Positions 18,784 through 58,825 of a stretch of DNA of 64,000 nt are shown piece by piece; within the stretch, counting starts at the first letter, position 1, and each line of letters opens with the position of its first letter. The stretch covers positions 124,001 to 188,000 of the forward strand of contig JAHHIA010000001.1 in the NCBI GenBank assembly GCA_019359045.1. Reading direction: 5' to 3'. This stretch comes from Scytolyngbya sp. HA4215-MV1. GTDB taxonomy: Bacteria > Cyanobacteriota > Cyanobacteriia > Leptolyngbyales > Leptolyngbyaceae. A program made the translations under genes and the position numbers. Under the pieces are notes generated by a model. It made no database searches. It was not told the DNA's origin and saw only the letters and a list, made by a program, of their open reading frames with translations.

Positions 18784-18852
18784 AATCTTGCATAATTTCG
18801 ACTAATCCCCATGAGAGAATATGGGTCATTTACAAACTAGTTGAGATTTGCA

Positions 18853-19953
18853 ATGTTTTCAACTCCAAGGATTTTGAGAAGGCTGAATTTAACGCTATTG
18901 CTAGCGGTTCCTGTTTTAGGGGTAATTTTAGTGCCTCATTGGACTGGGAATTTGTTGATCAATCGAGCGATCGCCCAAGATCAACAATGCAGTTCCTGGC
19001 GCAAAGGCAATTTGGAATTAGCGGATAGACAAGCGAAAGATCCTAAGAAAAGAAGCCGTATTTATTCGATCGCCTTTAATCCTGATGGTGCGTTTTTGGC
19101 GGTAGGAAATTACGATAAAAAAGTTGAAGTCTGGGAAGTTTCAAAACTTTGGACTAGTAAAGCAGCAAAAAGACCTAAGGTTGCGCTAGATTTTCCTCGG
19201 GGTGAAATTTTGACCGTCAATTTTAGCCCAAACGGCACAATATTAGCCAGTGGGGGTGGTAATGGAATCATTAAAGTGTGGAATTGGCAAAGGGAAGTGA
19301 CAATGCTCACTTTAACTAAACATTCAAAGGCAGTCCCCTCCGTTTTATTCAGCCCAGATGGACAGTTTTTGATCAGTGGTAGCCGAGATCAAACTGTTAA
19401 GATTTGGAACTTAAAAACGGGCGCAATTAGCGGTGGATGGACAGAGAATGAAGAAATTCAAAAATTAGCGCTAAGCCCAGATGGACGGACATTAGCAGTG
19501 AGTCTTGGGGGTGGAGAAATCCAATTTCGAGATTGGCAGACAGGCAACTCAATCGGTGAGATTGGCAAATCTAAAACTCCCATGTACCTAATCTCGGATA
19601 TGGCATTTAGCCCTGATGGCAAAACGTTGGCGTTTAGTCCTTACAGTGCTCCGATCGCTCAGCAGCCTAATCAAGTTTGTTTTTGGAATTTACAAAGTAA
19701 TCAGTTAGAACAATGTTTAAGCGGACATACTGCTAAGGTTTCATCACTTGCCTTCTCTCCCGATGGACATTGCCTCATCAGTGGCAGTTTTGACCGATCG
19801 GTCAAAGTCTGGCGAGTGGCTAGCCGTCAACTCGCGTATGATTCGATCGAAAATTTGGACTCTGTTTTTTCCGTTGCTTTTAGTCCCAATGGGCGATCGT
19901 TTGCTAGAGGAAGCGCTGACGGAAGTTTCAACGTTTTGAGATACAAGCAATAA
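18853..19953 (+). CDS. Exported WD40-repeat protein
   Basis: 366 residues from ATG 18853. The first 35 residues are a signal peptide or membrane anchor (LNLTLLLAVPVLGVILV, then AIAQ-D as a possible cleavage site). It then has about six or seven WD40 blades, recognisable by repeated FSPDG/FSPNG..L.SGS.D..V.VW segments (for example FSPDGQFLISGSRDQTVKIW). It should be a periplasmic or lumenal beta-propeller scaffold. It may be read from the upstream pair, but the gap of 69 bases does not require it. Partner unknown. Confidence 0.85.
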   Translation: MFSTPRILRRLNLTLLLAVPVLGVILVPHWTGNLLINRAIAQDQQCSSWRKGNLELADRQAKDPKKRSRIYSIAFNPDGAFLAVGNYDKKVEVWEVSKLWTSKAAKRPKVALDFPRGEILTVNFSPNGTILASGGGNGIIKVWNWQREVTMLTLTKHSKAVPSVLFSPDGQFLISGSRDQTVKIWNLKTGAISGGWTENEEIQKLALSPDGRTLAVSLGGGEIQFRDWQTGNSIGEIGKSKTPMYLISDMAFSPDGKTLAFSPYSAPIAQQPNQVCFWNLQSNQLEQCLSGHTAKVSSLAFSPDGHCLISGSFDRSVKVWRVASRQLAYDSIENLDSVFSVAFSPNGRSFARGSADGSFNVLRYKQ

Positions 19954-19983: not shown

Positions 19984-21549
19984 TTATCTGGGTTTGACTC
20001 CACCTCCATAAGGTTCATCAGGCGGCGGTTGGACGGGAGTTGAGTTTCCACCACCTCCATAGGATGGAGCCTGATAGCTAGGACCAGGATCGGTAACTGG
20101 ATCCGTAACGACAGGGAATGGCGATGGCATGGGAGGGGGAACAAGTCTGGCATTGGCTTCGCGAATAATGGCGTTGGCGCGTTCAATTTGGTTTTGACTA
20201 ATGAACTTCTGCTCGGCGGGGATTTTGGGGTTGCTATCGGGGGCGAGTACCTTTTTCGCTTCGGTAATGGCATCTTTTAATCGATCGCGCTTAAGATGTT
20301 GGGTCGCAGTTTGCAAGTAAGTTTCTCGTTTCGTCCAGCTCACTTTCATGGCAAGCCAGCGAGTTTGGAGTTGTCCGCAGGCAGGTTGGGTCTGGCTAAC
20401 GATCGCATCTCCTTCCTTGGGCATCATGCCCTGATTAAAATAATCAGTCACCATTCCCTGGAGCTTCACACAAATCTCACCCGTTAGTTTTGCCGCCTCT
20501 GACTGGTAGGTACTACCCGGACGGATTTGTTGGAGAGGCTTCAGGGCTACGATCAGCGGATCACCGTTCACAGAAGTTTGAGAGATCGCTTTTTGCGCCG
20601 TGCTAATCCATGCAAATTCTTGCAAGATTTGCGCTTTGAGTGCGCTGGCAGTAGAGAGGGTGTCGCGCATCTGCAAGGATTGCGGTGCTTGCAGGGAGGG
20701 AAAAGCAGCGATCGCGGCAACTGCGACCCCTACCCCAGCAATCACAGGGACAAACTTCCACTTTTCTAAAAAAAGTCGAGGAAATGACTGGGATGGCATT
20801 TCTGGCTGAACGGGAGCATTGTCTTCGGCAAGTTCTGTCAAAGTCCGAGGGGTCTGGATAGCTTGATGAATATCCTGAACCAATCGTTCATCTAGCCAGT
20901 GCCCCACCAATAAAGCTTTCCAAAACTCAGGATCAGGCAATTGCTTAAACTTGGCGATATGGTCTAGCAGCTTTTTGTGGTATTCTTGCCGCTTTTGATC
21001 CACTAGGTTTTGTTCTATCTGCTGAGCGATGCCAGGTGACAGCGTTTGTCGCGCTCTTTCTAATTGGGCACGATCGTCTTCACTAAAAACCAACGATTGT
21101 TTTTGCTGAGCCAGGGCATAAACTGTTTGGGCATAGTGCTCCAGGTTTTTGCGGTGTCGTTTGACAATGGCGTTGGGGTCGGTGCGACGATCGCTCAGCC
21201 CCAATTCGGTTTGCAAAGCTTTTCTTTTTTGTATTAATTGAGTTTCAAAATCATCCGTATCCAGACGATAAAATTGCTCAACAAAAGCAGCCACCTCAGC
21301 TCGATAGGTTCGCAGTTTATGATGTCGTTCTTTAAACAACGCTTCAATATCATGCAAGATTTGAGGGGCAGCTTCTAAACTTTGAATCTCAGACCAAAAC
21401 TCTTCTCGGACGAAATCGCAATCCGCGTCGTCCATATCGTAAAGCTGTTTCCAACTCTCTAGGGCCTGCTCGAGTTGCCGTTCCAGATCCTCTTTAGAAA
21501 AGTCTAGTTCGTCGTTCATTTTGTTGTTGTTTTCTACGCTGCTCAACAT
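19984..21549 (-). CDS. Single-pass membrane protein with coiled coil and proline-rich tail
   Basis: 521 residues from ATG 21549 (or ATG 21519, MNDELDFSKE). The first 260 residues are charged and helical; one membrane helix lies about residues 268-285 (FVPVIAGVGVAVAAIAAF); then a helical region and a Pro/Gly-rich tail (YGGGGNSTPVQPPPDEPYGGG). The start overlaps the end of the caspase-like gene by 56 bases, so the two are translationally coupled and probably work together. Segments such as LSPGIAQQIEQNLVDQKRQEY resemble the helical repeats of the caspase protein. Family not recognised. It is the last gene of the block. Confidence 0.75.
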   Translation of the reverse strand: MLSSVENNNKMNDELDFSKEDLERQLEQALESWKQLYDMDDADCDFVREEFWSEIQSLEAAPQILHDIEALFKERHHKLRTYRAEVAAFVEQFYRLDTDDFETQLIQKRKALQTELGLSDRRTDPNAIVKRHRKNLEHYAQTVYALAQQKQSLVFSEDDRAQLERARQTLSPGIAQQIEQNLVDQKRQEYHKKLLDHIAKFKQLPDPEFWKALLVGHWLDERLVQDIHQAIQTPRTLTELAEDNAPVQPEMPSQSFPRLFLEKWKFVPVIAGVGVAVAAIAAFPSLQAPQSLQMRDTLSTASALKAQILQEFAWISTAQKAISQTSVNGDPLIVALKPLQQIRPGSTYQSEAAKLTGEICVKLQGMVTDYFNQGMMPKEGDAIVSQTQPACGQLQTRWLAMKVSWTKRETYLQTATQHLKRDRLKDAITEAKKVLAPDSNPKIPAEQKFISQNQIERANAIIREANARLVPPPMPSPFPVVTDPVTDPGPSYQAPSYGGGGNSTPVQPPPDEPYGGGVKPR

Positions 21550-23719
21550 CTTGTTCGACCTCTTTATGAATTGCAGTGATTACGTCGTCTCTCAAAAATC
21601 TTCGTTGTGCTTGTAAAGCTTCAATGACATCGGGATCTTGAATTTTTTTCCGTTTAATCATCAACCATGCGTGAGTGATTTGGCGATAATTTGCCAGTGC
21701 GGCTCGATATTCATGGATAATATTTTGCTTGATTGTTTGAACAGTGCGATCGCCTAAATCTAATCTTCTTTGTAGTTTGATGAGCTCAGGCTCCAAAACA
21801 TTGCTAACTGTTGCTTCATCAATAGGATAAAGGGCATAAACCAGATTAGGAAGTTCTATACGATACTGACTAAGATTTTTTTCCAGTTCTTGATTGATAT
21901 CTGTTTCAATCAAGGCAATATCATTTTCGTGAAGTCCTAAAAATTCTTTAATTTGAAGTAGGGTTGTCCTAATTTCTTCAGGGATAGGATAGCATTCTTT
22001 AGCGCTTTGATTATAGGTTTGGGTGTACTGATTACAGCGATCGTCATAGCTGAGAAGTTGCTTCTCACAAATACTGGCTGCGACTTCGTTTCTTAATCCC
22101 AAAACAGTTTGGTGAGATTGCAATTGTTCCAATAAAATATCGATATTAATTGATTTTCCATACTGTTGAATTGTATTTTTTGCTTCTATTTGGTAAGTAA
22201 TTTTTTTATTGTAATAAGCCTCTTTACATTGCGATTCAATCGTTCTTACAGTGCATTCGCTCAAGTTCAGGCTAAGCGCTAAGTGTTCCCAGTTTGCTTC
22301 ATGTTCTAAGCGAATTGGATCATATCGATGCAAGTCGGAAGAAACGCGGGCTTCGTATTGCGCTATCTTATCGCCTAAACGTTTCTCATAGTCAGCAATC
22401 AAACTTTGTCTAGCCTGGGCGACATTATTTTCAGATAGCCCTTCGGGCAAAATTGTCCACAGGCTAGATTCATCCTCTAAACCCTGTTGGTTGAGAATAT
22501 CCGTAATGTGTTGAAGATAAGCTTTTAACCTCTGGTTAAATTCACGCGCAATACGTAGATAGATATAGGCAATATCTTCATTTCGCAAGTGCAATTCCTG
22601 ACGACAGGCAGATAACACTTCTCCATCGCAAGTCTCTTGAATAGGCAGAGATTGTGACTGTATATACTGAAATATATAGTCTTCACAATGTTGAAAAAGA
22701 TGGTTTACATCCTCTTCAATTTGGAGGGCTGTCTGTTCTCTTAATAGCTTGAGTCGTTGACGTGTTTGGCGTAAATCTGCTCTGGTTTCATTCTGAATTG
22801 GTAAACCCGCTCGACGCGCATTTCGATAAATTTTTTCATATTCCTCAAGTTGCTTTTGGCGAGCTTGTTGAAGATCTCGATCCTCTTGTTGATGTTGAAC
22901 AATTCCAATTTCAAAGTCAGTAGCAGCATTAGTAATAATGCGTGGAGTTTGTTGTAATTGTTCTTTTTCTGTATATTCTTGTGTGCGCCTCAATACATAG
23001 CTAAAGAGTTGCAAGGGGCGAATCATGCCTGCATCCGCAGCTTCGCCTTCTAATCCTTTAATTAAAAAATGAGTAAATACACCATGTTTTAAATCTGAAA
23101 ATTCGTAGGATAGTTGATCGCGATCGCAGGATAACAATGCGTAAAAGCCTAATCCTGGAATAATCGTATTTTTGACGTATTGATCAAATGCACCGACTAA
23201 TTCAGTAGCAGGAGTTTGTTGCCTCTGGCTCTGCGTCGATCGCAGACTTTGAATGTCTCCACTATGGCAAGCATCTACTAGAACTAACTGTTTTTTTGCT
23301 GAACATCGCCGCAAATAGTGAAACAATTCTGATAATGCTAGACTTTCCTTCGACGGATTATTTAAATGTGTTTTAGTGAGGCAAAGATAGGTTTGTTCGT
23401 GATCAACATATCCGTGTCCAGAAAAATAGATTAAAACAATGTCTTCTTTTTGAGCACTTCGAGCAATTTGCTCCAAACTGGCTAAAACATTTTTTCGGTT
23501 AGGGTCTAAAGATCCCACACAGTGAATCAGTTTTTCTTTTCCTAGAAAACCTTTTGTAGCTTGATCAAGGGCTTGTTCGATGCCCCGACAATCTGCGACG
23601 GCATAGTTGAGATGACCCAAAGCAGGATCTTCGTAGTCATCAATTCCAATTAGGAGTATCCAGAACCTGGAGAGACCTTTTCTAAAAATATCCAGAGGAT
23701 CTTTAGCTCTGAGTGACAT
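21494..23719 (-). CDS. Caspase-fold protease (peptidase C14/orthocaspase) with long helical repeat region
   Basis: 741 residues from ATG 23719 (MSLRAKDPLDIF); an in-frame TTG lies at 23755. Residues about 18-250 form a caspase domain: WILLIGIDDYED, VLIYFSGHG with H102, and LVLVDACHSGD with C151 give the catalytic dyad, and LLSCDRDQLSYE..HGVFTHFL completes the p10-like part. The remaining 480 residues are helical and contain about six degenerate repeats of the form L-x-L-x(3-5)-V-x-x-I-x-x ending in Y-x(3)-L (for example LGLHENDIALIETDI, LDLGDRTVQTIKQNI). No membrane helix. Proteolytic activity is likely; substrate unknown. Overlaps the next gene by 56 bases. Confidence 0.88.
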   Translation of the reverse strand: MSLRAKDPLDIFRKGLSRFWILLIGIDDYEDPALGHLNYAVADCRGIEQALDQATKGFLGKEKLIHCVGSLDPNRKNVLASLEQIARSAQKEDIVLIYFSGHGYVDHEQTYLCLTKTHLNNPSKESLALSELFHYLRRCSAKKQLVLVDACHSGDIQSLRSTQSQRQQTPATELVGAFDQYVKNTIIPGLGFYALLSCDRDQLSYEFSDLKHGVFTHFLIKGLEGEAADAGMIRPLQLFSYVLRRTQEYTEKEQLQQTPRIITNAATDFEIGIVQHQQEDRDLQQARQKQLEEYEKIYRNARRAGLPIQNETRADLRQTRQRLKLLREQTALQIEEDVNHLFQHCEDYIFQYIQSQSLPIQETCDGEVLSACRQELHLRNEDIAYIYLRIAREFNQRLKAYLQHITDILNQQGLEDESSLWTILPEGLSENNVAQARQSLIADYEKRLGDKIAQYEARVSSDLHRYDPIRLEHEANWEHLALSLNLSECTVRTIESQCKEAYYNKKITYQIEAKNTIQQYGKSINIDILLEQLQSHQTVLGLRNEVAASICEKQLLSYDDRCNQYTQTYNQSAKECYPIPEEIRTTLLQIKEFLGLHENDIALIETDINQELEKNLSQYRIELPNLVYALYPIDEATVSNVLEPELIKLQRRLDLGDRTVQTIKQNIIHEYRAALANYRQITHAWLMIKRKKIQDPDVIEALQAQRRFLRDDVITAIHKEVEQDVEQRRKQQQNERRTRLF

Positions 23720-24016
23720 TGCACTTATTGATTCAGTGACAATTTGCTGTAACAACTGACTACTTGAGTCAGAGCTTGGAATTTTTTAGCCGACAGAAAT
23801 CTCTCTCAACTATGGTTTGAGAGAGGTCAAAAAATTGGTCCGGTTTGTCTAAAGGGAAGACTTTGTAGGTGTTTGTTTAGACGAAGGTAAGGTTTCGACA
23901 AATTGATTTAATCAAGGCAAAGGCTTCCCTGTTGTAAGCTGATCCCACTGCTATCGAATATTATTGCTAAAAAAGCATAATATTGGGAACGGTCGTATGA
24001 ATAATTTAAGATTGCT
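23720..24016. other. Intergenic region with 9-bp hairpin
   Basis: About 300 bases between the DUF1822 gene and the caspase gene. CTCTCTCAA (23801-23809) and TTGAGAGAG (23817-23825) form a perfect 9-bp stem with a 7-base loop, a possible terminator after DUF1822 or attenuator. The gap suggests the caspase pair may have its own promoter. Confidence 0.5.
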
Positions 24017-25312
24017 TTATTCAGGAAACCGCAGATGTTCGGTTTTTGGAGTCGGCTCCTCAGCGGTGGAAAGCTCGACGATGTATTCTTCGTTAGGAGA
24101 GCCGATGATGCAGGCTTGCAAGCATTCTAAAGAAGCGCCGGGAATTGCCCGATCGCCATCAATCAGATTTCGTTGCGCATCTCGAATCGTCAGCGTGAGT
24201 CCTGCTGGGAGAGTGACTTGAGCCTCACTGGAATTCACTTTGATATCAGCGTTGATTTCCGGTGCGGTTTCAAGATCAGTAGGGGTGTCGTAGTAAATTG
24301 CCAGGTTGAATTCTTGTCCATTCAGAATAATCTTTTTACCAGCCGGAGAAATTTCAGCCCGTTTTGATTGCCCACTTCTTGCCACGATTGCAGCTGTGAA
24401 TGTAGGGGGATTGGTCAATTCGCTTAGCAGACTCCAACCTTCACCAAAGATTTCTGAGACTTTACGTTTCATTTCTACGAACGAGTCGCTTGAGCGATCA
24501 GCTTCGCCTTCAGTTGGGAGAGTGATTTGAGATTGGAGATCAGTTGCCGTCAGTGTTTGAGTCTCAGACTGGGTGCGTGCTCTGTACAACTGCTGCAGCC
24601 TTGCCGGGTCCGCAATAAAGGACAACCAATCGGTGAAAGCCTTGTCCGTATCTTGCGATAAAAGTCGGGGAGAATGGGGCAACGGTTGGCTAAAGTGATG
24701 GTGCAACGCAGCAATTTGGTCAGAGGGCAGTAGCGGCAAAGACGTGACGATTGGTTGCGGATCGGGATAGTAGTCGCGCAGCAACCAGATAGTGCTGAGG
24801 TTTTCGTTGAGGTTACTGATGGGGAGGGAGTAGGTGCGATCGCCCACATCGTAGTAACCTTGTTTGATTTGAGGGTGGGTGGCATAACCGATGATGCGGA
24901 GCCAGTGATCGTCCAAATCCAGCTGACAAGCAACATAGTAGGGAACTGCCCAAGTTTCAATATCTACCCACTCACTGGGTACACGCAATTCCTCCAGGGT
25001 GATGGCATCGCTGGGGATCACGACCAGGTTCACCTCTTCCATCTTCAAGGGCAACCCCGTTACCAATTCCCATCGTTGGGGCAGATCGATCGTAGCTGTG
25101 TGAAGCGGTGCTTGAACATCAAGGGCGATCGGCAATTCTCGTTGCAAGCATTGCAGGCAAAGGGTGTTGAGGTAGGCGCGCCAGCGAGCACCATCATGAG
25201 AATAAGGGTGCTGCTCGGTTTGGGCGGCGGCTAATTGGTCGTCTGAGGCGATCGCGCACCAAAGTGATTCGGGATAGATTTCGATTAACTGTCTGAGGGT
25301 CAACATGGTCAT
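24017..25312 (-). CDS. DUF1822 family protein
   Basis: 431 residues from ATG 25312, with AAGGAG five bases before it and a second ATG at 25306 better spaced from that site. The N-terminal half contains the DUF1822 pattern (WELVTGLPLKMEEVNLVVIP, VDIETWAVPYYVACQLDLDDHWLRIIGYATH and a long linker with LSTIWLLRDYYP), a cyanobacteria-restricted family of unknown function. The C-terminal 110 residues look like a beta-sandwich appended to it. It follows the sigma-like gene by 21 bases, so they form an operon. DUF1822 proteins commonly occur beside such sigma-like factors and CHAT or caspase proteins. Confidence 0.85.
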   Translation of the reverse strand: MTMLTLRQLIEIYPESLWCAIASDDQLAAAQTEQHPYSHDGARWRAYLNTLCLQCLQRELPIALDVQAPLHTATIDLPQRWELVTGLPLKMEEVNLVVIPSDAITLEELRVPSEWVDIETWAVPYYVACQLDLDDHWLRIIGYATHPQIKQGYYDVGDRTYSLPISNLNENLSTIWLLRDYYPDPQPIVTSLPLLPSDQIAALHHHFSQPLPHSPRLLSQDTDKAFTDWLSFIADPARLQQLYRARTQSETQTLTATDLQSQITLPTEGEADRSSDSFVEMKRKVSEIFGEGWSLLSELTNPPTFTAAIVARSGQSKRAEISPAGKKIILNGQEFNLAIYYDTPTDLETAPEINADIKVNSSEAQVTLPAGLTLTIRDAQRNLIDGDRAIPGASLECLQACIIGSPNEEYIVELSTAEEPTPKTEHLRFPE

Positions 25313-25333
25313 TTCTCCTTGGATCTGGATGGG

Positions 25334-26872
25334 CTAGTAAGTGCGGCGTAGCCAGGATTCAACAAAGGTCGTGATTTTGGGTTCGACCGTTGAACCAGCA
25401 TCCAGTTGTTTGACATGCAACTCTTGCGTGAGCCATTGTTTGAGTGCGATGGTCAGGGAAGCGATCTGATCATCGAGGGACTGATTCACCAAGTTTTGCC
25501 TGTGCCAGTGGTTTGTCAGAACTTGGTCAATGACTCCCTGGCAATGGAGCGCAGCGTTTTCAGATAAATCGAAGGCTTTGAGTCGTTGATTGAGTTGTTC
25601 GCGATCGGGTAAATCGGGATGGTTGCGATATTGCTCATATAGGAGCTTGATCAGTGACTGAGTTAAAGGTTGGGACACAATACGAGAAACGTTTGATTGG
25701 GATACCCCACATTGCACCGCAGCTTCAGTCGTGGTGAAGCCGATCTCCATGAGTATGAGGGCGGCTTGTTTGGGTTCAGGTAGCGTGTAGAAAGCTTGCG
25801 CGATCGTGTCGCGAATATCGGTTTGTTCAACGAACTGATCAGGGGTGATTGTCGTAGCAACCTGAAGCTCTTCCAATTCGCTGGAATGCTCGCCGTCAGT
25901 GGGGTGCAGCAAGGCACTGAGACTGAGTGGTGGAGTAGGGGATGGGCTACTTTCCAGATAGTCATTGATGGCTTTTAGATAGGTGTCCATCAATAGCGCT
26001 TGAGCCAAGGAGGCATCGATCGAGGCAATCCGGCTTTCTGGCGAGAGTTGTTTGGACTGACGTTGATTGAACAGGTGAGCGATGGCTTGCCATTGCTCGG
26101 CGGTGGGTTCCGTCCACCGAATGCCAGGACTATTGGGCTTGGCAGGTTGGTAAATTTCGTCGTAACAACTCCAGAGCAGACGATCGCTGAGAATTTGCTG
26201 ATCCGATCGTCCGCCTAGCCGAAGCACCTCTTCAAATTTTTCTTTGCTAATGCCTTTTAACCGCCCATGCGGCGATCGTTTTCGTAGTTTGGCTTCGGGA
26301 TCGCCTTTCACTAGCCCATCTCTGGCCTTGAGAAAGAGCGATCGCTCGGCATAAGTCCGGATCTGGTAGGTAAAGTCGTAAGCCTGTAACAGCTTAGCGG
26401 GAACATGAGAAGCCTGTTGTGCGGCGGTGAAGGATTTTTGTCGGCTTTCTGGGCTATCACTGAGTCCCAGTTTGAGGCATAACTTGTATGCAGCATACCA
26501 GGCAGATTTTTGCAGATAGGCAGACAACAGGGCAAAGTTGGTATCGGGTTTATGGGTTCGCGCTTTGAGTTCAGCGGTGGATCGCATATCGAGATGCTGA
26601 ATGATCCAAACGGCTTCTTGATTTCTGGCTGCACCAACTGCATTTTTGAGGTTGGGTTGCTTGTCCTTCAACGTCCTCAGCAAGAAGCATCGTGCCCAGG
26701 CATCATCGTGAAATTCTTGTCTGACCAGGGCTTCGTCAATCAGTTGTTCCATCAAGTGTTTGAGTTGGGGAATAACCTGGCATTCATAGTTACCCGGATG
26801 CTCTTGGTCAAGCTCCCACAATCTAGAAAACTCACTGATGAGTTTGGTCTTGTAATCATGCATGATCGACAT
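25334..26872 (-). CDS. Divergent sigma-70-like regulator (C-terminal region-4-type HTH)
   Basis: 512 residues from ATG 26872; a second ATG at 26863 has the better spacing from GGGAG. The sequence has a long N-terminal helical part and, near residues 350-395, DTIAQAFYTLPEPKQAALILMEIGFTTTEAAVQCGVSQSNVSRIVSQPL, which has the form of a sigma region 4 helix-turn-helix (LP..QR.vL.L...G.T..EIA...g.s.s.VSR). A clear region 2 -10-recognition helix is not evident. It is probably a cyanobacterial sigma-like protein of the type paired with DUF1822. Whether it binds RNA polymerase is not known. Confidence 0.7.
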   Translation of the reverse strand: MSIMHDYKTKLISEFSRLWELDQEHPGNYECQVIPQLKHLMEQLIDEALVRQEFHDDAWARCFLLRTLKDKQPNLKNAVGAARNQEAVWIIQHLDMRSTAELKARTHKPDTNFALLSAYLQKSAWYAAYKLCLKLGLSDSPESRQKSFTAAQQASHVPAKLLQAYDFTYQIRTYAERSLFLKARDGLVKGDPEAKLRKRSPHGRLKGISKEKFEEVLRLGGRSDQQILSDRLLWSCYDEIYQPAKPNSPGIRWTEPTAEQWQAIAHLFNQRQSKQLSPESRIASIDASLAQALLMDTYLKAINDYLESSPSPTPPLSLSALLHPTDGEHSSELEELQVATTITPDQFVEQTDIRDTIAQAFYTLPEPKQAALILMEIGFTTTEAAVQCGVSQSNVSRIVSQPLTQSLIKLLYEQYRNHPDLPDREQLNQRLKAFDLSENAALHCQGVIDQVLTNHWHRQNLVNQSLDDQIASLTIALKQWLTQELHVKQLDAGSTVEPKITTFVESWLRRTY

Positions 26873-27141
26873 CTCCCAAAATTACTGTCGGAATTTGAGG
26901 ATGGGGCTGGTATCTGATTGAGGGATTTACCCTATTAAGACAGTCAGGGCAACTGATTGGAGTCATGGAAGTTCATTGATCAGATTCTGTGATCCCTGTA
27001 GGGTAAAGCATGGGGAATTATGCAAAACCTGACAAGATTTTTCAAAAATTTTTGTGATGGTGTTGTCTGCACTGATGCTGAGGGGTTTGCTTTCGTAGCA
27101 TTGGGTTTGTGATTTTCAGTTCGTAAGGGATGAAGAACCCA

Positions 27142-29604
27142 TTAACTGGCTCGACCGTTGGAGACCAGCTTCGGGCCTCGATCGGTGGTCAGGGCACGTT
27201 TTAGACGGCTGATGGTGGCTAGGGCTTGCTGATGATTGTCCCGATCACCAGCACGGGCAAACAGACGAGCGGCTTCAGACAGATCTGCGATCGCAGCAGT
27301 TTTGTCGCCAATTTTAATCTGAGCTAGCCCCCGATAGAGGTAGGCATTGGCGTTTTCGGGTTCAATGCGGATCACTTCACTATAGTCATAGATGGCACCC
27401 AACTTATTGCCCAGACGACTGCGTTCCAGCCCCCGATAGAAATAGGCAATGGCGCAGTCGGGATCGACCTGGGTGGCGTAGCTGTAGTCTTCAATCGCGC
27501 CTAATTTGTCACCCTGTTCTGAACGAATCGTACCGCGATTGTAGTAGGCGGCGGTATTTTCTGGATTCAGATGTAGAGCTGCTTCAAAATCGGAGATCGC
27601 GGCGGTTTTATCTTCCAGGTCATAGAAGGCAATGCCCCGATTGTTACAAGCAATGTGATCATCGGGGTTTATATTCAAAACCTCGGTGTAGTCGGCAATG
27701 GCTCCGTTTTTGTCGCCCAAATCGTAGCGAGTGATTGCCCGGTTAAAGTAGGCATTGGCATCGCCAGGATTTAGCATGGGGTCTTCAAAGCGGTTGATCA
27801 GTTGTTGAATCACCTGAGTATCAGTGGTCCGTAGCCCGATCGCCACTTCAGGCAGGTCAGTTTCTTGAACAGCGAAGGGATGAATCCCCAGAACGGCAAA
27901 GGTGCGATCGCAGATCAGGAAGTTTTCATCTGTACCCAGTAACTTAAAGCGCAACTGATTAGGGTAGTCTTGTTTGAGCTGTGCCAGTTGGTTTAAAGCA
28001 TCGCGTAGAAGTTGCTTTTCGTGAGAGTCAATTCCCCAACGCTGATTTAGAAAGCGCGGCGATCGCCCCTTTAGAGTCTCTTCAAGACGTCCCCAGCCAA
28101 TGTCGAGGCAACCTCCGCGATCGAGAAAAGATTGAAATTTCTGAATCACGCCAGGGTCAAGCATTCCCTGATCGGGGCGTGACCAGACCAACACGATTTG
28201 CGTCTGAGCACTTTCCAATGCCTCTTCCAGCACGGTGCGACTACTATGAGCAGATTCAACCTCATTGTTCGCTTGTCCAGCAGCAGATTGGTTGCCCTTA
28301 AAATCCAGCACCAGTCCGTAATTCGTAGCTGGTTGAACTTTCTGCAACTGCTGATTCATTTCTTCTATGCGGTTTTGCAGCGATTCTTCAACCCAAATCT
28401 GCATCCGAGCGATGCCACTTTCTGCACCATCAATGCGGTGGGTGAGAAACTTCAACTGATTCTGAAGCCCACTGAAATCCAGCAATTTGGGCAAATGATT
28501 GATGCAATCGCGAAGGGTTTGCTGTTGTCGTTCCAAATTTTGAGCAAATTGTTGTACGGTATCAAGTTGTTGTTGCAGATTCCCCATATGGGTTTCGGCA
28601 ATGCCCTGAATTTCGGCTCGCAGACTGGACGGATCAGCAGCGGGTAAGTGGTTAAGCCGTTGTTCTAGATGGTTAACCGTTTGTTGCAGATCTTCAATCA
28701 CTCCCGCTTCGAGTTGAGGAGAAAGCGTTGGGGTTTGCTCCGATTGCTGATGATTTAATCGGGTATGGAGACTGTCCAGTTGCTTTTTAAAAATTGTATG
28801 GGTCACTCGAGTCGGTGCGATCGTTTGTTCTAAGGCTTGATTTTGCTGGCTTAGTTTTTCGACCTGAGCAGCCAACCGCGCCAATTCTCGCCGCGAAACC
28901 ATATCGCCTGCCACTTTCATGAGTGAGGCAATGTCTTGTTTGAGGGCGCTGGCATCGAAGGGTTGGGGCAGTTGATTGAGCCGACGTTGTAGATGACTAA
29001 TCTGCTCTTGTAGAGTACGAGTGCTGAATTGTTTTTGCTCATTCGTGAAAGTTTCCAGGCTGGATCGCAACTCCGCTAGCTCGAGTCGAAGTTGAGAAAC
29101 GCTTCCTTCCAAATGCTCAACTCGACTGATATCCGTGAGGCGATGGAGTCGTGAAGTGATATTTGAAAGTGATTCTCCCACATGATTATATTGATTTTTC
29201 AAGTGAGAGATATCATACCGAACTTTGCCCAAACTGTGGGTTTCGATCGCTTCAATTCTCTGCGTTGTTTCATATTGCAAGCGCGCAATCGCATCGTGAC
29301 TATTTTGCAAAACATTTTGTCGTAGCGCTGCCAGATCTTCAAAACTGGGCAAAGTGCGCGTTTGCTGTTGCAACTGCTTCAGGTTGATCGACAACCGCTG
29401 ATCGACCCGGGAAATCGCCACCGTTGTCTTTTGCTGCGTCAATTGCTCAACCCGTCGTCGATTGACCAGACTGAGCAACAAAAAGAGCGAAAGAGGCGTT
29501 GCCGTGTAGAGAATCTGTTTGGTCAGCAGGGTGGCGATCGCACCTACCCCGGTTCCTGCCAATGTGGCGTATTCTGCTAAATCCAGCCAATTTCGATTTT
29601 TCAC
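27142..29604 (-). CDS. Membrane-anchored coiled-coil protein with PLD-like region and TPR domain
   Basis: 820 residues from ATG 29604. Two adjacent hydrophobic segments lie in residues 12-47, then about 380 residues of glutamine-rich coiled coil. Residues about 455-600 (TQIVLVWSRPDQGMLDPGVI, DENFLICDRTFAVLGIH) resemble a phospholipase D-like fold without an HxK(x)4D motif. Residues about 625-800 contain five to six tetratricopeptide repeats of the A.aY.NRG....GDK.GAI.DY..a pattern. It lies 270 bases upstream of the sigma-like gene on the same strand and is possibly part of the same functional block. A scaffold role is inferred. Confidence 0.75.
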   Translation of the reverse strand: MKNRNWLDLAEYATLAGTGVGAIATLLTKQILYTATPLSLFLLLSLVNRRRVEQLTQQKTTVAISRVDQRLSINLKQLQQQTRTLPSFEDLAALRQNVLQNSHDAIARLQYETTQRIEAIETHSLGKVRYDISHLKNQYNHVGESLSNITSRLHRLTDISRVEHLEGSVSQLRLELAELRSSLETFTNEQKQFSTRTLQEQISHLQRRLNQLPQPFDASALKQDIASLMKVAGDMVSRRELARLAAQVEKLSQQNQALEQTIAPTRVTHTIFKKQLDSLHTRLNHQQSEQTPTLSPQLEAGVIEDLQQTVNHLEQRLNHLPAADPSSLRAEIQGIAETHMGNLQQQLDTVQQFAQNLERQQQTLRDCINHLPKLLDFSGLQNQLKFLTHRIDGAESGIARMQIWVEESLQNRIEEMNQQLQKVQPATNYGLVLDFKGNQSAAGQANNEVESAHSSRTVLEEALESAQTQIVLVWSRPDQGMLDPGVIQKFQSFLDRGGCLDIGWGRLEETLKGRSPRFLNQRWGIDSHEKQLLRDALNQLAQLKQDYPNQLRFKLLGTDENFLICDRTFAVLGIHPFAVQETDLPEVAIGLRTTDTQVIQQLINRFEDPMLNPGDANAYFNRAITRYDLGDKNGAIADYTEVLNINPDDHIACNNRGIAFYDLEDKTAAISDFEAALHLNPENTAAYYNRGTIRSEQGDKLGAIEDYSYATQVDPDCAIAYFYRGLERSRLGNKLGAIYDYSEVIRIEPENANAYLYRGLAQIKIGDKTAAIADLSEAARLFARAGDRDNHQQALATISRLKRALTTDRGPKLVSNGRAS

Positions 29605-58519: not shown

Positions 58520-58825
58520 ATGGCTAATCAAAATAAATCATCAAATAGCGGTGAACAGGGATTTGCGTCCATGGATGCTAAAAAACAACGTGAAATTGCT
58601 AGCCAAGGTGGAAAGGCTGCTCACGAGAAAGGAACTGCCCATGAATTCACTTCTGAAGAAGCGAGAGAAGCCGGGCATAAAGGCGGACAGGTCGCTCATG
58701 AGAGAGGAACTGCCCATGAGTTCACCTCTGAAGAAGCGAAAGAAGCCGGTCGTAAGGGTGGGGAGAGCGTGAGTCAAGACCGTGAGCATATGTCTGACAT
58801 TGGTCGGAAGGGTGGCAAATCCTAG
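58520..58825 (+). CDS. KGG-repeat general stress protein
   Basis: 101 residues from ATG 58520, CAGGAGATC upstream. Contains repeated REIASQGGKAAHEKGTAHEFTSEEAREAGHKGG units, twice, and a final DIGRKGGKS. This KGG/stress-induced motif occurs in bacterial GsiB and Con-10-like proteins, which are strongly hydrophilic and desiccation- or stress-linked. Regulation not visible. A strong terminator follows 35 bases later. Confidence 0.88.
   Translation: MANQNKSSNSGEQGFASMDAKKQREIASQGGKAAHEKGTAHEFTSEEAREAGHKGGQVAHERGTAHEFTSEEAKEAGRKGGESVSQDREHMSDIGRKGGKS

Follow-up and report, generated by a model that had tools for sequence, protein, structure and literature searches.

A DUF1822 protein between a divergent sigma-like protein and a membrane-anchored caspase homolog: a possible protease-sigma switch

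The DUF1822 protein encoded in the 64 kb stretch of DNA analyzed here (the window) appears to connect a divergent sigma-70-family protein with a membrane-anchored caspase-fold protease (Table 1). The reading that we favor, if with only middling confidence, is that these proteins make up a membrane protease-sigma switch in which a sensor-triggered caspase would cut the connector DUF1822 and thereby free the sigma factor. The gene order, the fusion of the caspase with the membrane part, the orthology of the WD40 proteins and the inheritance of DUF1822 in two blocks are established by sequence comparison, and from these features we infer the physical binding, the anti-sigma action, the cleavage, the trigger and the target genes. 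We know of no function for DUF1822, which is encoded in 191 of the 291 sampled genomes of the class.

Table 1. Features of the predicted module and the adjacent upstream gene (window coordinates)
Feature	Coordinates	Strand	Remarks
Sigma-70-family protein, divergent	25334..26872	-	512 aa; region-2-like about 110-200, region-4 HTH about 345-401
DUF1822 N-domain, residues 1-254	24551..25312	-	block inherited with sigma
DUF1822 linker, residues 255-323	24344..24550	-	low-confidence; candidate protease site
DUF1822 C-domain, residues 324-431	24017..24343	-	eight-stranded beta sandwich; block inherited with protease
C14 caspase and about 450 aa of helical repeats	21494..23719 (ATG start; TTG at 23755)	-	PF00656
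Membrane half of protease: cytosolic repeats continued, one TM helix, C-terminal part predicted outside	19984..21549	-	
Secreted WD40 beta-propeller, convergent with membrane gene	18841..19953	+	PF00400
Membrane/coiled-coil/TPR protein	27142..29604	-	judged outside module

The original prediction delineated a block of five genes, and all five open reading frames are present, all on the minus strand, with the spacing of 21 bases between the sigma-like and DUF1822 genes, the intact H102/C151 dyad of the caspase (numbered from the ATG at 23719), the 56-base overlap of the caspase and membrane protein genes, and the single predicted TM helix of the latter. The four co-directed genes at 19984-26872(-) form a unit. 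The fifth, encoding the TPR/coiled-coil protein, is not conserved with them and was dropped as a component because no homolog was found in the fetched neighborhoods of the other loci with a C14 caspase. As judged from sequence, the module also takes in the secreted WD40 gene, which lies outside the originally noted block. A promoter and terminator scan yields no signals above the shuffled controls.

The order sigma-DUF1822-C14 caspase (hereafter type B, with type A denoting the sigma-DUF1822-CHAT/CHASE2-DUF928 loci) is found at eight loci, namely the window and seven others, so that the arrangement in the window is not a chance one. The best seven matches of the sigma profile in 390 genomes of the class all show this order (7/7), and when named genomes are searched with DUF1822-B, the loci recovered are mostly of type A. 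The genes are, then, found together elsewhere, and the lack of co-occurrence named in the original prediction as a refutation is not observed. The spacing between the sigma and DUF1822 genes is short (median 7 bp, 120 pairs). The complete C14 version was seen in only 7 of the 390 class genomes, as might be expected if the genes were merely adjacent and had no joint function, but the recurrence of the order in several families, the gene fusions and the joint replacement of blocks make such an explanation extremely improbable.

Two natural recombinants indicate how DUF1822 is partitioned. In the first (L118/L120; G002 vs G027), the flanks show 88-92% DNA identity and DUF1822-C and the caspase are retained (about 92-100% aa identity), whereas the identity drops to 23% aa in the sigma-like protein and to about 45% in DUF1822-N. 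Sigma and DUF1822-N have been exchanged as one, and the promoter stretch proximal to sigma has been kept. In the second (L175/L176; Oscillatoria PCC 10802 vs Prado101), the upstream flank, sigma and DUF1822-N are 92-95% identical at the DNA level, and divergence begins at DUF1822-C and continues through the protease. The recombinant sequences come mostly from metagenome-assembled contigs, and L176 may be chimeric, even if no close copy of its second half is present in PCC 10802.

The same partition is apparent across 36 sigma-DUF1822-CHAT/CHASE2 loci, where DUF1822-N correlates with sigma (0.84) and the partial correlations are 0.79 for sigma with N given C and -0.18 for sigma with C given N. 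DUF1822-C tracks the protease (Spearman 0.60) and not sigma (0.05), with a bootstrap 95% range for the difference between the two correlations of 0.16-0.47 (Pearson) or 0.28-0.78 (Spearman). DUF1822-N is correlated with the protease as well (0.83, Pearson), so that the two blocks are not wholly separate. Breaks inside DUF1822 are rare (2 of 55 close pairs), and a general exchange of sigma-DUF1822 blocks among type-A pairs was rejected, given that L067/L069 and L125/L127 show none.

The window protein matches the DUF1822 profile (PF08852) with 151 bits, well over the gathering cut-off of 25. Its predicted model consists of two domains, an N-terminal alpha/beta domain of high confidence and a C-terminal eight-stranded beta sandwich, joined by a low-confidence linker (pLDDT about 38-60), and both recombination breakpoints fall near residues 254 and 306. 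The two natural breaks, the tracking of sigma by the N-terminal and of the protease by the C-terminal part, and the two-domain model with the breakpoints in the linker are new here, and the recombinants supply natural domain boundaries. DUF1822 has been called a TPR protein (Kaur et al. 2021, PMC8195603); in contrast, the model comprises the alpha/beta domain, linker and beta sandwich, and a TPR fold is absent from it. A search of PDB sequences detects no significant relative of DUF1822, and the fold search yields beta-sandwich matches only, with low TM-scores; Csx30 is not among the 50 best matches shown.

The mechanism that we propose begins with a C14 caspase that is carried by helical repeats in the cytosol and held by the single TM helix. 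The sensor would consist of the outside domain and the secreted WD40 propeller. DUF1822 would be a two-headed connector, with the N-domain holding sigma, probably as an anti-sigma, and the C-terminal beta sandwich docking on the protease. Once the sensor is triggered, the caspase would cut DUF1822, with the flexible linker or its vicinity as the most likely site, and the sigma factor set free would switch on its target genes. Of the two substrates offered originally, DUF1822 and the sigma-like protein, the former is the likelier partner or substrate.

A precedent is the layout of Csx30, in which the N-domain resides on sigma and the C-domain on the CHAT protease, with a flexible linker in between (Strecker et al. 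2022, PMC10028731). By analogy with Csx30 in type III-E CRISPR, DUF1822 is probably an anti-sigma that proteolysis releases. The Csx29/Csx30/CASP-sigma system and the window have in common a caspase-fold protease, a sigma factor and a two-domain connector, with the contacts demonstrated in the former (PMC10028731) and inferred in the latter. The trigger, however, probably lies outside the cell in the case of the window and is not RNA, and array-like repeats are absent from the 64 kb, so that membership in type III-E CRISPR was rejected. The comparison with type III-E drawn in the original prediction is thus apt for the way of working; it fails for type III-E itself, given the missing array and the lack of a significant PDB sequence relative of DUF1822.

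The inheritance in two blocks tells the partners of DUF1822 rather than inhibition or cleavage, and it would also fit a DUF1822 that is a chaperone or co-activator bringing sigma to the membrane complex, with the caspase cutting itself or other proteins and the sigma output independent of DUF1822 cutting. Kaur et al. propose an autoproteolytically activated caspase with sigma as the final transcriptional step (PMC8195603). Nevertheless, a connector that is cut is the better match to the precedent of Csx30 and to the position of the low-confidence linker, exactly where the two blocks meet, and the chaperone explanation appears somewhat unlikely.

The association of sigma and DUF1822 with caspase-fold proteins is already known; the version in the window is a variant in which the caspase is of the C14 type and the membrane sensor is a different one. 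The EACC2-caspase systems described by Kaur et al. (2021, eLife) include an ECF sigma factor and DUF1822 (EACC2/CHAT type, PMC8195603), and the type-A loci seem to be these systems. Like them (PMC8195603), the window combines sigma, DUF1822, a caspase-fold protein and a membrane sensor; in contrast, its caspase is a Peptidase_C14 with helical repeats, a separate TM part and a secreted WD40 protein. No EACC2 domain precedes the caspase domain, and the match begins at residue 32, some 20 aa behind the ATG, which leaves no space for one; membership in EACC2 was therefore rejected. The two-gene EACC1-caspase system, prevalent in actinobacteria according to Kaur et al. (2020, PMC7159879), shows a likeness in that NF047832 is the model closest to the window caspase. 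The score of 108 bits is below the cut-off of 140, however, so that membership in this system was rejected as well; the gene upstream of the caspase is DUF1822, and general profile searches, run with no named EACC1 model, gave no EACC1 match. Parts of the survey of Asplund-Samuelsson et al. (2012, PMC3501461) describe operons of Myxococcus and others that combine metacaspase with sigma-70 genes; DUF1822, which is present in the window, is not mentioned in those parts.

In the proteolysis of anti-sigma factors of the DegS/RseA/RpoE and RsiW types, a membrane signal, a protease, an anti-sigma and a sigma factor act together. The switch proposed for the window resembles these systems in all four elements but differs in that its putative anti-sigma is not a membrane protein and its protease belongs to an unrelated family. 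Cyanobacterial caspase homologs are usually treated as death enzymes. If DUF1822 bridges sigma and caspase-fold proteases, many of them would instead, or in addition, be signaling receptors with an effect on transcription, and what Csx30 does in type III-E would have its widespread counterpart outside CRISPR. More tentatively than the switch itself, we suggest that DUF1822 defines a class of anti-sigma connectors that is widespread, independent of CRISPR and under the control of proteases. The N-part would bind sigma and the C-part a caspase at the membrane (of the CHAT/CHASE2 or the C14/TM/WD40 kind), with the two blocks exchangeable in nature, such that caspase-fold proteases would be transmembrane receptors switching on cyanobacterial genes.

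Taken singly, the sigma-like protein falls short of the TIGR02937 cut-off (34.4 vs 42.9 bits, E=1.5e-8), and its Sigma70_r4_2 match (E=0.017) is under the curated cut-off. The AlphaFold model (pLDDT 85) has Thermus sigma-A as the best PDB match (E=4.9e-3), with no strong full-length structural match in the fold search. The scores below the cut-offs and the lack of a strong full-length match would suit an HTH or scaffold protein that has ceased to be a sigma factor, and the activity of the protein may have been lost. Regions 2 and 4 are recognizable at the family level, though: the family profile matches the solved region 4 of FliA (FliA/SigF, E=2.9e-9) and a sigma region-2 fragment (E=1.8e-3), and the type-A relatives exceed the TIGR02937 cut-off with 112 bits, which makes loss of the sigma identity improbable.

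The window WD40 protein (PF00400, 168 bits) starts with a hydrophobic signal followed by AIAQ and is the reciprocal best hit of the G009 protein. A convergent secreted WD40 gene is found at 5 of 6 readable loci, in the same position in G009, G293, G183 and L168, damaged by an IS in G183 and frameshifted in G293; it is not seen beside the one readable G002 fragment. In G047 and G072, caspase, nSTAND1 (shown for G047), TM and WD40 are parts of one protein encoded right behind sigma-DUF1822, the same protease/TM/WD40 combination as in the window. All sensor parts found (CHASE2, post-TM WD40 and secreted WD40) point out of the cytoplasm. This orientation does not favor a caspase that is a cell-death or counter-invader effector, with sigma and DUF1822 chiefly controlling expression of the locus, even though related caspase and EACC-type systems have been proposed as conflict systems (PMC7159879, PMC8195603). 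Retention of the promoter stretch near a replaced sigma (L118/L120) also is a poor fit to simple self-regulation, and PADLOC identifies no defense system apart from a generic caspase model, so that an effector role appears quite unlikely.

The caspase matches Peptidase_C14 (PF00656) with 69 bits (cut-off 21.4), and the motifs SGHG and DACHSG carry the His/Cys dyad (codons 23414-23416 and 23267-23269, respectively), both residues of which are kept in all 8 type-B caspases read; a PDB search with the single sequence gives no match. The dyad is H114/C163 if counted from the TTG at 23755, but the ATG at 23719, close to which the homologs start, is the likelier start. The predicted TM helix of the membrane protein, which has a homolog in G009 (37% identity), spans residues 266-284 (about 20698-20754). 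The notion that this protein anchors the protease is borne out by G293 (L066), where caspase and membrane part form one polypeptide of 850 aa (TM 553-571). In G183 and L168, the two halves are split by frame, and a +1 offset is common to all 4 loci with split ORFs; the splits in L168 and G183 resemble single-base splits inside a repeat. Real splits, translational coupling and sequence errors are equally possible, and a programmed frameshift is not claimed. The overlap in the window would shrink to 26 bases with translation starting at the internal ATG (21519). The gaps between the DUF1822 and caspase genes are 174-552 bp, so that the caspase could be expressed separately.

The original prediction joined the window's sigma-like, DUF1822 and C14 caspase genes in one block, and their co-occurrence in the same order at eight loci bears this out. 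The five open reading frames named there all lie on the minus strand with the overlaps described, and the numbering of the caspase dyad, H102/C151, is correct provided that translation begins at the ATG at 23719, the position that matches the start of its homologues. In profile searches, the DUF1822 and C14 caspase proteins exceed Pfam cut-offs and the sigma-like protein on its own falls under curated ones; against solved structures, the profile of its family matches region 4 of FliA/SigF at E=2.9e-9 and, at E=1.8e-3, a fragment of region 2. A single TM helix is predicted in the membrane protein. About 80 bases ahead of the caspase start there is a 9-bp inverted repeat (CTCTCTCAA...TTGAGAGAG), a possible operator that is not above chance.

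Features and loci (L, contigs whose neighbourhoods were read; G, sampled genomes, the window's being G000)
Feature	Location	Remark
WD40 gene	window 18841-19953
Membrane protein	window 19984-21549	minus strand
C14 caspase	window 21494-23719	minus strand
Inverted repeat	window 23801-23825
DUF1822	window 24017-25312	minus strand
Sigma-like protein	window 25334-26872	minus strand
Coiled-coil/TPR protein	window 27142-29604	minus strand
Tandem repeats	window 58605-58754
Second DUF1822 gene	G000:C16:55121-56047 (L080:7538-11882)
Stretch ahead of sigma	L118:4285-4342 / L120:4255-4312	G002 / G027
Caspase with duplication	L064:10946-14248	G183
Helical-repeat protein fragment	L150:175-4227	G002
Type B locus	L064	G183
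Type B locus	L066	G293; seemingly same contig as Leptolyngbyaceae CSU_1_3 (L171)
Type B locus	L079	G298; seemingly PMM_0083 (L197)
Type B locus	L119	G009
Type B locus	L118	G002
Type B locus	L120	G027; seemingly Leptolyngbya DLM2.Bin15 (L177)
Type B locus	L168	contig placed in a Tatlockia MAG, maybe by misbinning
Type B locus	window	G000

Within the order, relatives of the window sigma factor mostly adjoin DUF1822, and the neighbourhoods sort into two kinds. In type A, sigma-DUF1822 precedes a CHAT-CHASE2 protein and, in many cases, DUF928; type B, to which the window belongs, has a longer sigma next to DUF1822 and a C14 caspase. Of the sigma matches that a profile search brought up in 390 class genomes, the seven strongest all have DUF1822 and then a C14 caspase after them; four of these (G000, G183, G293, G298) were used to build the profile and three (G009, G002, G027) were not; the next full-length matches come without a C14 caspase (none in G370, CHAT-CHASE2 in G252). 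In a set of 120 non-identical sigma-DUF1822 neighbours, the co-directed gene that comes next encodes CHAT-CHASE2 44 times, CHAT 13 times, and a C14 caspase, caspase-WD40 or caspase-repeat protein about nine times; these counts depend on a simple ORF caller. The window's genome has a second, shorter DUF1822 gene, followed by CHAT-CHASE2 and DUF928 and preceded by a gene for a 250-aa protein without a Pfam match rather than a window-type sigma factor.

Kaur et al. 2021 reported that EACC2-caspase genes neighbour ECF sigma and DUF1822, and suggested autoproteolysis with a sigma output. The window, by contrast, has no EACC2; its caspase is of the C14 type and its sensor is a different one, which makes it a variant, not described before, of this kind of system. 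No earlier report of two-block inheritance of DUF1822 or of a WD40 link was found in the open-licence literature searched.

Two natural recombinants, out of 55 close pairs, are broken within DUF1822. The congeners G002 and G027 share 88-92% DNA identity upstream and downstream, but their sigma factors are 23% identical and their DUF1822 proteins about 45% until the last third, where identity climbs to about 92-100% and remains high across the caspase. The 59 bp directly ahead of sigma are 85% alike despite the replaced sigma; the promoter region was therefore not carried along with sigma. Oscillatoria PCC 10802 and Prado101 display the reverse pattern: sigma and DUF1822 to residue 247 are at 92-95% DNA identity, and beyond that point DUF1822 and the CHAT-CHASE2 protein are divergent; no copy of the partner's protease above 58% identity was found in either genome. 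In the window DUF1822 the two breakpoints correspond to residues 306 and 254, both of them in the low-confidence linker that, in its AlphaFold model, joins an alpha/beta N-domain to a C-terminal beta sandwich of eight strands. Across 36 type A loci, sigma correlates with the DUF1822 N-domain at 0.84 and with the C-domain at 0.51 (Spearman 0.05); the protease correlates with the C-domain at 0.81 (Spearman 0.60) and also with the N-domain (0.83), so that the separation is clearest for sigma versus the C-domain.

The recombinants, the model and the covariation fit a connector role of DUF1822, which would hold sigma with one end and the protease with the other. Csx30 of type III-E CRISPR likewise has an N-domain on CASP-sigma, a flexible linker and a C-domain on the CHAT protease, and its authors back a model in which cleavage lifts inhibition (PMC10028731). 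By analogy, the connector of the window module would be cut and inhibition relieved; the likeness is in the way of working and is not meant to place the module within type III-E.

In G293, caspase, repeats and TM helix form one 850-aa protein. The caspase/membrane split falls within a repeat in G183 and L168, where it looks like a one-base frame change; in the window and G009 it coincides with the edge of a repeat, and the two ORFs overlap briefly. Given this fusion and these positions, the membrane protein is best regarded as the latter half of the protease. At four of four junctions (window, L064, L086, L168) the membrane ORF is offset by +1 from the caspase frame, unlike the short overlaps of stop and start codons that are usual; a +1 frameshift may occur here but is unproven. 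In the G183 caspase, an internal duplication of ~70-85 aa copies the segment with the active-site cysteine. A G002 protein fragment with caspase-type helical repeats has a CHAT-like C-terminal domain just under the cut-off, and thus two caspase-fold domains may share one protein.

A secreted WD40 gene is convergent to the membrane gene in the window, G009, G293 (spread over two frames), G183 (interrupted by an insertion sequence) and L168; among many WD40 proteins, the copies of the window and G009 are each other's best hits. In its place, a response regulator-cyclase gene is present on a G002 fragment that is maybe the sigma-linked copy. The gene after sigma-DUF1822 in G047 and G072 encodes a single protein that combines caspase, TM helix and WD40 and, in G047, has been shown to include an nSTAND1 NTPase; at L198, a caspase-nSTAND1-WD40 protein comes next. 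Because every sensor part found is past the TM helix or secreted, we propose that the trigger of the window module would come from outside. Elsewhere in the window, two 75-nt tandem direct repeats are 85% alike (25 codons each if coding).
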